DNA from: Spirochaetes bacterium RBG_16_67_19
GTDB taxonomy: Bacteria; Spirochaetota; Spirochaetia; SZUA-6; DRHE01
DNA: 15,824 nucleotides
Direction: 5' to 3'
Assembly: GCA_001829505.1 (NCBI GenBank)
Contig: MIBK01000046.1
Span: 324-16,147, forward strand
Both the position numbers and the translations under genes were made by a program. The notes beneath the pieces were generated by a model. The model did no database searches, was not told where the DNA came from, and saw nothing but the letters and a program-made list of their open reading frames with translations. Positions 8,614 through 14,365 of this stretch are shown here, piece by piece. The first letter of the stretch is position 1; each line of letters starts with the position of its first letter.

Positions 8614-8895
8614 GTGGACGGGCGCAGCGTCGAGGTGAACATCCTGGGCTCCTCGTTCACCATCCAGTCCCGCTATGATCCCCGCTACATGGGCGAGGTG
8701 ATCGCCTACCTGAAGGATAAGATCCGGGAAATCCAGGCGGCTACCGGCGCCCAGGATCCCCTGAAGATCGCCCTGCTGGCGGCCCTGAACGTGGTGGACG
8801 AGCTGCTGGCCAAGCGGGGTGAGAGCTCCCGGGAAATCGAGGAGCTCACGGAGCGGCTTATCGAGAGAATCGACCAGAGCCTGGTGGAAAACTGA
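8614..8895 (+). CDS. zapA: cell division protein ZapA
   Basis: A 93-residue ZapA, which binds FtsZ and promotes bundling of its filaments at mid-cell. The start VEVNILGSSFTIQSRYDPRYMGEVIAYLKDKI matches the ZapA N-terminal globular domain, followed by KIALLAALNVVDELLAKR and a C-terminal coiled coil (EIEELTERLIERIDQSL). The start is GTG at 8614 with AGGAAG (8603-8608) five bases upstream. It lies nine bases behind the ZapB-like gene and is probably on the infC-rpmI-rplT transcript. In many bacteria pheS-pheT stand between rplT and zapA; here they are absent. Confidence 0.92.
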   Translation: MDGRSVEVNILGSSFTIQSRYDPRYMGEVIAYLKDKIREIQAATGAQDPLKIALLAALNVVDELLAKRGESSREIEELTERLIERIDQSLVEN

Positions 8896-8902
8896 CCCTG
8901 CG

Positions 8903-9081
8903 GTGCCCGCGAGGGGGATGATTATCTTCTTGGGTCAAACCTGATCCTTGGGATTCCATATATCGGGGTTGAATGCCTGCCGGCGAAAGCCGGGAAACAC
9001 GATTCCCCGATGCGGAAACCCACTTGAACACGCTCGTGGTTCAAGAGGATGCTTCTCCAGACGGCACTCGCGGGGTTTTTT
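8903..9081 (+). ncRNA. ssrS: 6S RNA-like structured RNA
   Basis: An intergenic stretch of about 180 nt that folds like 6S RNA, the decoy that binds sigma-70 RNA polymerase. The closing stem is CCCGCGAG (8906-8913) with CTCGCGGG (9067-9074), continued by GGGGA with TCTCC. Then comes a large central bubble. The apical stem is GGGATTCC (8950-8957) with GGAAACCC (9014-9021; one A-A mismatch), then ATCGGGG (8962-8968) with CCCCGAT (9005-9011), capped by CCGGC-GAAA-GCCGG (8980-8993). The 3' side of the bubble holds a small hairpin, CTTGAA (9023-9028) with TTCAAG (9040-9045), as in E. coli 6S RNA, where CCUUGAACC pairs with GGUUCAAGG. A run of six T (9076-9081) ends it. The zapA-ssrS order is also that of E. 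coli. The exact 5' end and promoter are not visible; it may be processed from the zapA message. Confidence 0.85.
9067..9081 (+). terminator. probable 3' end of the 6S-like RNA
   Basis: The 3' strand of the closing stem, CTCGCGGG, plus one G, is followed at once by TTTTTT (9076-9081). The stem partner is about 155 nt upstream, so this is a long-range rather than compact terminator. The T run overlaps the stop codon of the convergent kinase gene (9080-9082). Confidence 0.55.
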
Positions 9082-10961: not shown

Positions 10962-12064
10962 GCCGCGAGCCTGACGATCCGCTGGCCCGCATTGCCTTCC
11001 TGGCCATCGACCGCCTGGAAGCCCGCCGGATCGGCGACTTCCAGCTGGACCCGGCCGTGCCCCTGCCCATCGAGCTTCCAGCCCAGCAGCCCCTGCGGCC
11101 GGAGGACATCAGCTGGCAGGCCATCATCTCGGCCATGCTCAAGCTCCTGGCCTACCGGCCGGAAGGCTCCGAAGCGGACTACTACCGCCGTTTCATCCTG
11201 GCCGCCCAGCCGGACATCAAGGAAGAGTTCACCCGGGCGGGCATCCTCAAGGCGGAGCGCGGCGAGCTGGCCCTGGCCGTGGAGATTTTCCGCTCCATGG
11301 CCGGCCTGTTTCCGGAATGCGGCCAGACCCGCAACAACCTGGCCCTGGTCTACGAGCAGCAGGCCGCCCGCCTGGAAGACGCCGGGGCGGCGGAGGAGGC
11401 CGGACCTCTGCGGGAGCAGGCTTTCGCCGCCTACAAGGCCGCCCTGGCGGCCGAGCCGGAGCTGGCCGCCTGCCACCTTAACTTCGCCCATTTCCACCTG
11501 CGCAGCGGGAATCCGGGCAAGGCCCGGGAGCACCTGGGGCTGTTTCTGAAGCACAATACGGACCCCGAGCGGGTCGAGCAGGCTCGCGCGCTGGCCGCGC
11601 GCCTGGAGGGCTATGAGCAGGTGGAGCGGACCTGCGCCCAGGCCTTCGACGCCATCCAGCTGGGACGGGAGGCCGAGGGCCTGGAGCTTCTCCAACCGGT
11701 CACCCGGGAGCACCCGGAGCTGTGGAACGCCTGGTTTCTGGCGGGCTGGGCCCGGCGCCGGATGGGCGACTACCGCCAGGCCCGGGAAGCCTTCGAGACC
11801 TCCCTGCGCTCCAACGCTGGCAATCCCGACGCCTTGAACGAGCTGGCCATCTGCCTGCTGGAGCTGGGAGAGGCGCCCGAGGCCCGGCTGCGCCTGCGGG
11901 AAGCCACCCGCCTGGACCCTGAGAATCCCAAGATCCTCTCCAACCTGGGCGTGGCCGCCCTGCGCTGCGGGGACCAGCAAGAAGCCCGCCGCCTGTTCAA
12001 GGCCGTGCTGCGCCTGGCCCCCGACGATCCCATCGCCCGCGGTCTTTTGGAAAAAGAAAATTAA
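10958..12064 (+). CDS. tetratricopeptide-repeat protein
   Basis: A 368-residue protein without signal peptide or membrane segment. The N-terminal 100 residues are unassigned. TPR-like helix pairs lie at about 88-120 and 123-200 (LALVYEQQAARLEDAG; AAYKAALAAEPELAACHLNFAHFHLRSGNPGKAREHL). Three clear C-terminal TPRs lie at about 255-357 (WFLAGWARRRMGDYRQAREAFETSL; NELAICLLELGEAPEARLRL; LSNLGVAALRCGDQQEARRLFKAVL, each closing near a Pro). TPRs are protein-binding scaffolds. The start overlaps the PilZ stop as ATGA, so the two are translated together and may work together, perhaps with the TPR protein as the partner of the c-di-GMP receptor (inference). Confidence 0.92.
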   Translation: MSREPDDPLARIAFLAIDRLEARRIGDFQLDPAVPLPIELPAQQPLRPEDISWQAIISAMLKLLAYRPEGSEADYYRRFILAAQPDIKEEFTRAGILKAERGELALAVEIFRSMAGLFPECGQTRNNLALVYEQQAARLEDAGAAEEAGPLREQAFAAYKAALAAEPELAACHLNFAHFHLRSGNPGKAREHLGLFLKHNTDPERVEQARALAARLEGYEQVERTCAQAFDAIQLGREAEGLELLQPVTREHPELWNAWFLAGWARRRMGDYRQAREAFETSLRSNAGNPDALNELAICLLELGEAPEARLRLREATRLDPENPKILSNLGVAALRCGDQQEARRLFKAVLRLAPDDPIARGLLEKEN

Positions 12065-12089
12065 GTTTTTAAGCCGGGAATGCCGAATT
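12062..12089 (+). promoter_or_regulatory. possible sigma-28 promoter for the first flagellin
   Basis: TAAGTTT (12062-12068) followed by GCCGAATT (12082-12089) resembles the flagellar sigma-28 consensus TAAAGTTT plus GCCGATAA. The -35 lacks one A, and the two boxes start 20 bp apart instead of 19. It overlaps the end of the TPR gene and would give a leader of about 165 nt. Flagellin genes are usual sigma-28 targets, but the match is incomplete. Confidence 0.45.
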
Positions 12090-12217
12090 AGGGATTGAGG
12101 CGATTTTTGGCCTGTTCCACCCGGGGGAGGGCCCACTTCGCTGCTATCGTTTTTAGTATCGTCTTTTTTTGAAGGAGGTTGAGGGGAATCGTACGGGCCG
12201 GCCCGGCCCCGTTTCCA

Positions 12218-12260
12218 GGCGCGAGCAAGGACGCTCGCGCCCACACCAATCAGGGAGGAG
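12218..12260 (+). promoter_or_regulatory. hairpin plus RBS with paired ANGGA sites, flagellin 1 leader
   Basis: A perfect 9-bp stem, GGCGCGAGC (12218-12226) with GCTCGCGCC (12233-12241), closes a 6-nt loop AAGGAC that shows the CsrA core motif ANGGA. The second ANGGA, AGGGA (12252-12256), overlaps the ribosome-binding site GGGAGGAG (12253-12260), three bases before the ATG. The two GGA cores start 25 nt apart. The same layout precedes the second flagellin. Confidence 0.6.
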
Positions 12261-12262
12261 CT

Positions 12263-13123
12263 ATGATCATCAATCACAACATGAGCGCTCTGTTCGCCCA
12301 GCGGCAGCAGAAGCTCAACAGCTGGGTCCTGGACAAGAACATGGAGAAGCTGTCCTCGGGCCTGCGCATCACCCGCGCCGGCGACGACGCCTCCGGACTG
12401 GCCGTATCTGAAAAGATGCGCAGCCAGATCCGCGGGCTGAACCGCGCGGAAAAGAACGCCATGGACGGCATTTCCTTCATCCAGACCACGGAAGGCTACC
12501 TGCAGGAAAGCCAGGACATCATCCAACGCTTGCGCGAGCTGGCCGTCCAGGCGGCCAACGGCATCTACGCCGACGAGGACCGCATGCAGATCCAGGTGGA
12601 AGTGTCCTCGCTGGTGGACGAGGTGGATCGCATCGCCTCGCACGCCCAGTTCAACGGCATGAACCTGCTCACCGGCCGCTTCGCCCGGGAGTCCGGGGAG
12701 AACATCGTGACCGCCTCCATGTGGTTCCACGTCGGGGCCAACATGGACCAGCGCGTGCGGGTTTTCATCGGCACCATGACCAGCGAGGGGCTGGGCCTGA
12801 AGCAGCAGGCCAGCAAGCAGATCATCTCGGTCTCCACCCCCGACCAGGCCAACCGGGCCATCGGCCTGCTGGACGAGGCCTTGAAGCAGGTGAACAAGCA
12901 GCGGGCCGACCTGGGAGCCTACCAGAACCGCCTGGAGTTCACCGCCAAGGGCCTGGCCATCGGCGCGGAGAACATGCAGGCCTCCGAAAGCCGCATCCGC
13001 GACGCGGACATGGCCTTCGAGATGGTGGAGTTCACCAAGAACTCCATACTGCTGCAGTCGGCCACCGCCATGCTGGCCCAGGCCAACCTGAAGCCCCAAA
13101 CCGTGTTGCAGCTGCTGGGGTAG
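12263..13123 (+). CDS. FlaB-type periplasmic flagellin, copy 1
   Basis: Structural protein of the spirochaetal periplasmic flagellar filament core. The 286 residues consist almost only of the conserved N- and C-terminal helical domains ([97 protein letters not shown]). Only a short middle segment is present, as in FlaB proteins; [17 protein letters not shown] and [12 protein letters not shown] are typical. There is no signal peptide, as expected for type III export. The ATG at 12263 is chosen because it gives the exact family N-terminus; an in-frame TTG at 12179 would add 28 unlikely residues and sits against AAGGAGG with no spacing. Arginine is encoded only by CGC/CGG-type codons, unlike copy 2. 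Confidence 0.97.
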
Positions 13124-13134
13124 AGGGCTATATT
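13106..13134 (+). promoter_or_regulatory. possible sigma-70-like promoter ahead of the second flagellin
   Basis: TTGCAG (13106-13111), 17 bp and TATATT (13129-13134), straddling the stop codon of the first flagellin. The -10 is good and the -35 moderate. It would allow separate transcription of copy 2 with a leader of about 250 nt. This is weak evidence on its own. Confidence 0.3.
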
Positions 13135-13220
13135 TAGGGTAGGAAGGGTTTTTCCGTTCTGATCTTTGAAAATCCTCACCCTCCGCGCGCCATGCGGGGG
13201 AAAGGGATCCGACGGGCGTC

Positions 13221-13325
13221 GCCGGCCGAAGGGCCTAAAAGCACGAGGCCGGCCGCTCGAGGATCTCCTTGCCGGGCAGGGAAGCACGGGAACGGCTGCG
13301 GAGCCAAGCGCGAGAACCTCCGCAG
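13221..13325 (+). repeat. inverted repeats in the flagellin 2 leader
   Basis: Two perfect inverted repeats: GCCGGCC (13221-13227) with GGCCGGC (13247-13253), loop 19 nt; and CTGCGGAG (13296-13303) with CTCCGCAG (13318-13325), loop 14 nt. Together with the hairpin at 13347-13370 they make the 268-nt gap between the flagellins a strongly structured RNA leader. Neither has a T run, so they are not simple terminators. No gene is seen in this gap. Confidence 0.6.
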
Positions 13326-13346
13326 AAACCTTGTCGGCATGGTTTG

Positions 13347-13386
13347 AAGAAAGGCAGGGAAGCCTTTCTTGCTGGATTCAAGGAGG
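13347..13386 (+). promoter_or_regulatory. hairpin plus RBS with paired ANGGA sites, flagellin 2 leader
   Basis: A perfect 9-bp stem, AAGAAAGGC (13347-13355) with GCCTTTCTT (13362-13370), closes a 6-nt loop AGGGAA containing ANGGA. A second ANGGA, AAGGA (13380-13384), is part of the ribosome-binding site AAGGAGG (13380-13386), five bases before the ATG. The GGA cores start 24 nt apart. Stem length, loop length and spacing match the first flagellin leader although the stem sequences are unrelated, which argues for selection on structure. Confidence 0.6.
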
Positions 13387-13391
13387 GTGAG

Positions 13392-14252
13392 ATGATCATC
13401 AACCACAACATGAGCGCGTTGTACGCCAACCGGGTGCTCAAGTTCCAGAACTGGGAAGTGAACAAGAACATCGAGAAGCTTTCCTCTGGGATGCGCATCA
13501 ACAAGGCGGGCGACGACGCATCGGGGCTGGCGGTCTCCGAGAAGCTGAGGTCGCAGATACGGGGCCTGAACCAGGCGGAGCGGAACATTGAAAACGCCGT
13601 CTCCTTCATTCAGGTTTCGGAAGGCTACCTGGCGGAGACCCACGACATCCTGCACAGGATCCGGGAGCTGGCGGTGCAGTCCGCCAACGGCATCTATTCC
13701 GACGAGGACCGGATGCAGATCCAGGTGGAGGTGTCCCAGCTGGTGGACGAGGTCAACAGGATCGCCTCCCACGCGCAGTTCAACGGGATGAACATCCTGA
13801 CCGGAGCATTCGCCAACCCCGAAGCGGGAGGGTTGGAAATCCGGACGATGTACTTCCAAGTGGGCGCCAACATGGACCAGAGGGAACGCGTGTTCATCGG
13901 TACCATGACGGCAAAAGCCCTGAAATTGGAAGGCACGACAGCCGCGGAGACGATCTCGATCTCGACACCGGACAAAGCGAATATGGCCATCGGCCTGGTG
14001 GACACGGCCATGAGAACGGTTTCCAAGCAGCGCGCCGACCTGGGCGCCTACCAGAACCGTTTCGAAATGGCCGCCAAGGGAGTGGCGATCGCCGCTGAGA
14101 ACATGCAGGCGGCGGAGTCGCTGATCCGGGACGTGGACATGGCCGCCGAAACCGTGCAGTTCGTGAAGAACAACATCCTGGTGCAGACCGGGACGGCGAT
14201 GTTGGCGCAGGCCAACCTCAAGCCGCAGAGCGTGCTACAGCTGCTGAGCTAG
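13392..14252 (+). CDS. FlaB-type periplasmic flagellin, copy 2
   Basis: A second 286-residue flagellin, exactly the length of copy 1 and clearly homologous over its whole length: [92 protein letters not shown]. The middle segment differs ([20 protein letters not shown] versus copy 1). Spirochaetes commonly build the filament core from several FlaB isoforms. The ATG at 13392 has AAGGAGG five bases upstream; frames starting further left are open by chance. Codon use is unlike its neighbours: AGG/AGA for arginine appears five times (none in copy 1), with more A/T-ending codons. This suggests separate origin, or recent exchange rather than simple local duplication. Confidence 0.97.
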
Positions 14253-14278
14253 AAATTGGATAGGGCTTCGTTCCCGTA

Positions 14279-14307
14279 AGGAGAGGTCACTGGACGTCAC
14301 CTCTCCT
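14279..14307 (+). repeat. 9-bp perfect hairpin in the flaG leader
   Basis: AGGAGAGGT (14279-14287) pairs perfectly with ACCTCTCCT (14299-14307) around an 11-nt loop with TGGAC at its tip; a C-C mismatch and two further pairs may extend the stem. There is no T run after it, so it is not a standard terminator. It may end, process or protect the flagellin message, or be a third GGA-presenting hairpin. Confidence 0.55.
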
Positions 14308-14313
14308 GCAACC

Positions 14314-14346
14314 GGATGGGGGGGGTCGCGCCCCTCCCCGTCCATT
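14314..14346 (+). repeat. G-run/C-run hairpin before flaG
   Basis: GGATGGGGGGGG (14314-14325) can pair with CCCCTCCCC and GTCC (about 14331-14344) around TCGCG, a very stable GC stem with one bulge. The eight-G run could also form other G-rich structure. No run of T follows. It lies just upstream of the flaG ribosome-binding site and could lower read-through from the flagellins into flaG. Confidence 0.45.
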
Positions 14347-14365
14347 CTTTCACGGAGGAAAGACC

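Follow-up and report, generated by a model that had tools for sequence, protein, structure and literature searches.

CsrA and RsmE prefer ANGGAN hexaloops, and a CsrA dimer can bridge sites lying 10-63 nucleotides (nt) apart; at glgC, one site is found in a hairpin and one at the Shine-Dalgarno (SD) sequence (PMC7652899). The leader of Campylobacter jejuni flaA contains two ANGGA stem-loops 21 nt apart, the second over the ribosome-binding site (RBS), with compensatory changes, and CsrA binding has been demonstrated by co-immunoprecipitation, gel shift, footprinting and mutants (PMC4894983). Similarly, the leader of Bacillus subtilis hag displays two CsrA sites, one of them over the SD, with FliW as the antagonist (PMC7652899, PMC6529632). 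Among spirochaetes, CsrA of Leptospira shifts flaB3 and flaB4 probes in gels (PMC8668096), CsrA sites have been noted near the SD of flaB1 and flaB2 in T. denticola (PMC9481697), and CsrA is reported to act on the flagellin FlaB of Borrelia (Sze 2011). Spirochaete filaments comprise several flagellins, and their post-transcriptional control is reported as only partly known (PMC3757020). Here and below, the published systems are described from extracts of the cited sources.

The locus described here, referred to as the window, is a 15,824-nt stretch of a spirochaete metagenome-assembled genome (MAG; 3.80 Mb, 245 contigs, completeness 83.7%). It encodes, in this order, flaB1 (12263..13123, + strand), flaB2 (13392..14252, + strand) and flaG, identified by Pfam matches to two flagellins followed by FlaG, and the genome holds three flagellin matches altogether. 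The nearest named relative of the flaB1 product comes from 'Spirochaetaceae bacterium isolate bin59' (90% identity). Judged by sequence comparison, it is likely that both flagellin leaders are dual-site CsrA targets and that the flaB2 leader is, in addition, a folded domain with its SD locked by an anti-SD.

Each of the two leaders contains a perfect 9-bp stem with a 6-nt ANGGA loop and a second ANGGA at the RBS, as the first-pass annotation had claimed and as can be read directly from the sequence. Hairpin A (12218..12241, + strand; GGCGCGAGC-AAGGAC-GCTCGCGCC), the candidate distal CsrA-type site of flaB1, presents its loop GGA at 12229-12231, and the flaB1 SD with the second ANGGA (AGGGAGGA) follows at 12252..12259 (+ strand). 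Hairpin B (13347..13370, + strand; AAGAAAGGC-AGGGAA-GCCTTTCTT), the candidate distal site of flaB2, presents its GGA at 13358-13360. From GGA to GGA the distance measures 25 nt in leader A and 24 nt in leader B, matching the 24-25 nt first reported and falling inside the 10-63 nt bridging range. In a scan of both strands over all 15,824 bases, hairpins A and B alone combine ANGGAN with a perfect stem of 9 bp or more, and 300 dinucleotide-preserving shuffles of the window yielded none; the two hairpins are thus confirmed as real and beyond chance. Upstream of hairpin A, a search for a sigma-28 promoter returned a weak best site with 4 mismatches in 12 positions.

This layout resembles Campylobacter flaA in combining a stem-loop ANGGA with an RBS ANGGA (21 nt there, 24-25 nt here), in its compensatory changes and in the presence of fliW, and since it has been published for flaA, the CsrA-hairpin architecture is already known. 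Unlike the 45-nt flaA leader, in which the SD lies in the second stem-loop (PMC4894983), the window's two leaders have an SD-hairpin stem of 2 bp only, and leader B carries a large extra domain. The two sites, one over the SD, are likewise shared with hag, for which the extracts describe no SD-locking domain (PMC7652899, PMC6529632). The 9-bp stems are more stable than most selected CsrA ligands, which have four or fewer pairs (PMC7652899). As in Leptospira, T. denticola and Borrelia, CsrA would act at flagellin leaders within the phylum, whereas the covarying hairpin with its SD geometry and the flaB2 domain found here are absent from the extracted descriptions of Leptospira and T. denticola (PMC8668096, PMC9481697). 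Relatives frequently have the SD itself within an ANGGAG loop, with a stem of at least 6 bp in 14 of 70 distinct leaders vs a mean of 1.4 (maximum 6) with partners permuted.

To follow the layout in relatives, the window and 80 related named loci (724,274 bases, both strands counted) were scanned for a stem of at least 6 bp with ANGGAN, a second ANGGA 15-35 nt downstream and a start codon. The full layout occurred 45 times, never on the minus strand, and 44 of the occurrences were at flagellin starts. The remaining one, in L038 (1430-1540), is an extra CsrA-type hairpin and SD ahead of a 20-codon frame, with a flagellin 122 nt downstream. A sample picked without regard to structure, 82 flagellin leaders from the 80 named loci and the window, contained ANGGA 18-36 nt ahead of the SD in 63 leaders (71 sites); the other 19 were dropped for having no SD by rule or no such ANGGA. 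Stems of at least 5 bp enclosed 45 of the 71 unselected sites (mean 0.5 in 2000 flank shuffles), and stems of at least 7 bp enclosed 33 (mean 0.08). In the ungapped alignment A1 (62 sites, 61 distinct), two-sided changes were seen at 9/9 stem pairs, 168 cells were altered on both sides vs 73 when shuffled, and the covariation score reached 0.661, compared with 0.201 shuffled and no more than 0.221 after sliding the partner. The stem covariation that the first-pass annotation had suggested looking for in relatives is therefore strong, while the invariance of the GGA in A1, unlike that of the stem, is by construction, because the sites were chosen for ANGGA.

A larger set of 187 distinct leaders was inspected for a GGA hairpin with a stem of at least 5 bp and a loop of 5-8 nt, 15-36 nt ahead of the SD. 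It was found in 134 leaders and not in 51, partly belonging to a long-spacing class and partly having shorter stems, and two leaders had no SD by rule. As a control, 210 further ANGGAG-ATG sites of these loci were examined: 23 had such a hairpin, and 16 of these 23 are flagellins by their first residues, leaving 7. In the long-spacing class (18 leaders), the raw GGA-GGA distance is 39-97 nt, yet when the spacer was folded alone, it formed a hairpin that left 9 external nt in 12 leaders, 10 in one and 5-17 in five, among them L159, which has, in addition, a closer hairpin with a loop of 7 nt. These model folds suggest that the folded distance, rather than the raw spacing, may be what is kept, which is a lead and no proof, given that most of the 12 are related by descent and have a conserved tail in common.

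Model R1, covering hairpin and SD, was derived from alignment A2, which comprises 54 leaders including the window's two and omits 8 of the 62 A1 rows (L013, L031, L032, L057, L065, L070, L076 and L077). In the source genome, R1 detected three strong sites, all at flagellins. Two of them, at 43.3 bits (hairpin B with its SD) and 38.4 bits, are the window's own leaders and thus rows of the model; the third, at 47.8 bits, precedes the third flagellin, on contig C37, which was absent from model building. The leader of this flagellin (L083, 1501-1552, minus strand, G000 contig C37) has the same hairpin and SD, and the next-best site in the genome, at flaG, scores 21.6 bits. Across the phylum, R1 matched 258 of 296 genomes at E <= 0.001, a threshold that admits noise because 15 flagellin-less genomes of families f9 and f12 reach 24.2 bits. 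At the 30 best loci of the phylum, a flagellin starts at the model's end in 30/30. Thirteen R1-rich genomes gave 32 matches at E <= 1e-4, with loci for 30: 27 start a flagellin, and three lie at other genes (L156, L157 and L158; 27.5-30.4 bits). One locus clipped by its contig, L140, was classed by its flagellin start at 1547.

The source genome also encodes the presumed regulators, whose presence the first-pass annotation had proposed to check: csrA (72.5 bits, cut-off 27) and fliW (92.9 bits, cut-off 25) adjoin each other downstream of flgL, an order, flgL-fliW-csrA, shared with T. denticola (PMC9481697). A FliW-CsrA fusion, prompted by a single open frame of 224 aa, was rejected, as a run of N separates the two. 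Of the 296 phylum genomes, 267 have csrA, 267 have fliW and 279 have a flagellin; the 15 sampled genomes of f9 and f12 have none of the three.

Taken together, the hairpin, its covariation, the near-exclusive link to flagellins and the co-occurrence with csrA and fliW, all obtained by comparison, leave the CsrA reading of both leaders well supported. One CsrA dimer would grip the hexaloop GGA and bridge to the SD GGA about 24 nt away, excluding the ribosome, and export of flagellin would free FliW, which in turn would take CsrA off. We infer CsrA binding, repression and relief by FliW from work in other bacteria, and leader A probably represents plain dual-site CsrA repression. Several findings count against the explanation, among them the high stability of the 9-bp stems noted above and the loss of the loop GGA in some flaB2 leaders described below. 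Further, 51 of 187 leaders have no GGA hairpin, and in genome G215 (L127, L202; 99% complete), csrA and fliW were not found despite flagellins and matches to both RNA models (R1 and R2, the latter described below), which may reflect a true absence or a gap. With such a covarying CsrA leader spread over the phylum, the CsrA-FliW rule can be put to the test in spirochaetes that have not been cultured.

For leader B, the CsrA reading of the first-pass annotation is incomplete. Hairpin B is the 3' part of a folded leader of about 230 nt (13161-13394), which had been overlooked, and this flaB2 leader is the more interesting result than the CsrA hairpins. An alignment of 59 rows places the gap 13124-13391 alongside 58 further gaps between tandem flagellins, and the domain, all on the + strand, opens with a conserved boxA-like box, GATCTTTGAAAA (13161..13172). 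The 5' strand of helix P1, the anti-SD CTCACCCTCC (13175..13184), is complementary over 10 bp to the 3' strand, the flaB2 SD GGAGGGTGAG (13382..13391), which runs up to the start codon and includes the second GGA. P2 pairs CCATGC (13190..13195), placed by eye from the family pattern and differing from the window's single fold, with GCATGG (13337..13342). Between them are P3, a hairpin region of approximate limits (13196..13285) whose length varies among relatives, and P4 (13296..13325), which consists of CTGCGGAG / CTCCGCAG around GCGCGA (13308-13313). Hairpin B, as P5, is placed between P2 and the SD strand of P1, and the core of the domain has conserved AACGGA and GCGCGA.

RNAalifold returned no structure on the MAFFT alignment A3, and single folds, permutation tests and model R2 took its place. 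For P1, 55 of 64 listed gaps were used (A3 holding 43 of these and A4 holding 12), and SD/anti-SD complementarity scored 18.46 vs at most 17.22 in 200 partner permutations (z 7.3). Partner permutation likewise gave z 7.9 for P2 (55 relatives) and z 10.9 for P4 around GCGC[GA], tested in the 46 of 55 leaders that have P4. In several leaders, an altered SD tail is matched by the anti-SD, namely in L154 (TGATCCT/AGGATCA), L068 (TGATCC/GGATCA), L159 (CCCCTCTTTGAT/ATCAAGGAGGGG) and L032 (GTTCTCCA/TGGAGGAC). In single folds, the SD pairs with the anti-SD segment in 49/55 leaders vs 51/550 controls with the middle shuffled, and the mean fold energy of the flaB2 leaders has a z of -5.1 (30 mononucleotide shuffles each).

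The case for P1 rests on the family and not on the window sequence, since 23 of 1000 shuffled window leaders form a 10-bp helix with the SD by chance and leader A, by model, likewise has a mostly paired SD. In the folding model, the SD of the complete leader B is unpaired with a probability of 0.003; the value becomes 0.274 when the anti-SD stretch is removed and 0.103 when 60 nt of coding sequence are appended. Alone, these values mean little in GC-rich RNA, because leader A gives 0.164. A Csr/Rsm site in or near a structure that pairs the SD with an anti-SD is also seen in Pseudomonas psl and E. coli ymdA; these are described as hairpins (PMC7652899), whereas P1 reaches across roughly 200 nt to enclose a domain of several stems.

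Of the 43 aligned flaB2 leaders, 36 keep the GGA in the P5 loop, while L014, L032, L052, L068, L074, L125 and L154 keep P5 and have lost it; the script used flags ten leaders without GGA, of which L018, L046 and L069 are cases of another hairpin being chosen. A looser count, which includes GGA outside the loop, finds GGA 13-38 nt ahead of the SD in 50/55 leaders. As P5 survives without GGA in these seven, it also serves the fold, and since it lies inside an SD/anti-SD leader as well, hairpin B probably has a role beyond that of a CsrA site.

Model R2, built from 12 relatives with the window excluded, matches the window's flaB2 leader at 52.5 bits (E 3e-14). At E <= 1e-5, at least 23 of 296 phylum genomes have one site each, a lower bound as eight candidates were scored per genome, and 22 of the 23 sites lie between two flagellins, the weakest (L214) being without a flagellin nearby. 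Rfam searches of the whole window and of 12060-13420 gave no match for the flaB2 leader, returning 6S RNA elsewhere and two sub-threshold matches, and none of the relatives' loci matched among 20 at the gathering threshold or among 8 to E 0.1. Termite-flg (RF01729) was rejected as the identity of the leader, as its model gave no match. No comparable SD-locked flagellin leader was found in open-licence PubMed Central, judged by title and start of abstract, and the flaB2 leader RNA is apparently undescribed so far.

The entry box may be of relevance for how the domain works. TCTTTGA[AC]A is present in 55/61 gaps, and 42/61 are within one mismatch of TTCTTTGAAAA, compared with 11/3200 shuffled gaps. 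We take TTCTTTGAAAA to be the Nus boxA antiterminator consensus, which GATCTTTGAAAA resembles. In the whole source MAG, KWTCTTTGAMAA occurs once, in the flaB2 leader, and in eight other genomes it occurs 2-18 times each (reversed control pattern 0-9); in 30 loci read of 89 sites in these 8 genomes, no rRNA signature was found near the box on the same strand within about 1.5 kb on each side.

We propose that translation of flaB2 is controlled twice, by sequestration of its SD and by CsrA. Pairing of the anti-SD (13175-13184) with the SD (13382-13391) would keep flaB2 locked from the outset, and as long as P1 is closed, base pairing of the SD GGA should deny both the ribosome and CsrA access to the SD. 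P1 would thus have to open before either uses the flaB2 SD, and we infer that this opening is regulated, the opener being perhaps CsrA, some protein or ligand acting at the P2-P4 core, or the speed at which transcription proceeds (through the boxA-like box). Going further, it could tentatively be speculated that the flaB2 leader represents a new class of regulatory RNA, a domain of about 150-260 nt located between the tandem flagellins of Spirochaetia. It would comprise the boxA-like entry box, a P2/P3/P4 core in which AACGGA and GCGCGA are conserved, and a covarying helix of SD and anti-SD that closes the domain. Such an RNA would set the ratio of the two flagellins on a signal, and CsrA would provide a further input at the same SD. 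As a concrete device, the SD-locked leader could determine flagellin stoichiometry, and it is small enough for in vitro work.

A less likely alternative is that the flaB2 leader acts as a switch by itself, responding to a ligand, temperature or the timing of transcription and translation, with a minor role for CsrA there. The covariation of P1, P2 and P4, the conserved core motifs, the survival of P5 without GGA in 7/43 leaders and the location of the domain only ahead of the second tandem flagellin in 22/23 genomes would fit such a switch, but the retention of the loop GGA in 36/43 leaders and the 43.3 bits of hairpin B and SD with the CsrA-type model, although that row is part of the model, speak against it. 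A CsrA-independent role of the hairpins, in mRNA stabilisation or in shaping the ribosome site, is improbable: stable leader hairpins can protect mRNA, yet the sequences of the stems change while a stem is present at most ANGGA sites of suitable distance, loop and geometry fit published CsrA sites, and csrA and fliW are in the genome. Least probable, by a small step, is that P1 and the box form a DNA element (promoter or terminator) and no RNA switch, as a conserved TATA-like stretch directly after the flaB1 stop might hint, since the compensatory SD/anti-SD changes (L154, L159) and the covariation of P2 and P4 are typical of RNA stems.

The TATA-like stretch itself (consensus about GTAnTATAnTATA) occupies 13124-13145, is conserved in tandem gaps and is perhaps the flaB2 promoter. 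Downstream of flaB2, a CsrA site at flaG was considered and rejected, as the 21.6 bits of the window's flaG leader are due to the SD and a hairpin without loop GGA; a GGA hairpin at most 36 nt away is present in 4/38 flaG leaders. The flaG leader (14253-14365) contains two hairpins that are echoed in relatives, AGAGGT..CTGGACGTC..ACCTCT and GGGG..TCGCGC..CCCC, and downstream of these the flaG SD lies in a 6-bp ACGGAG-loop hairpin. Elsewhere in the window, a 6S RNA at 8892-9080 scores 61.2 bits, exceeding its Rfam gathering score.
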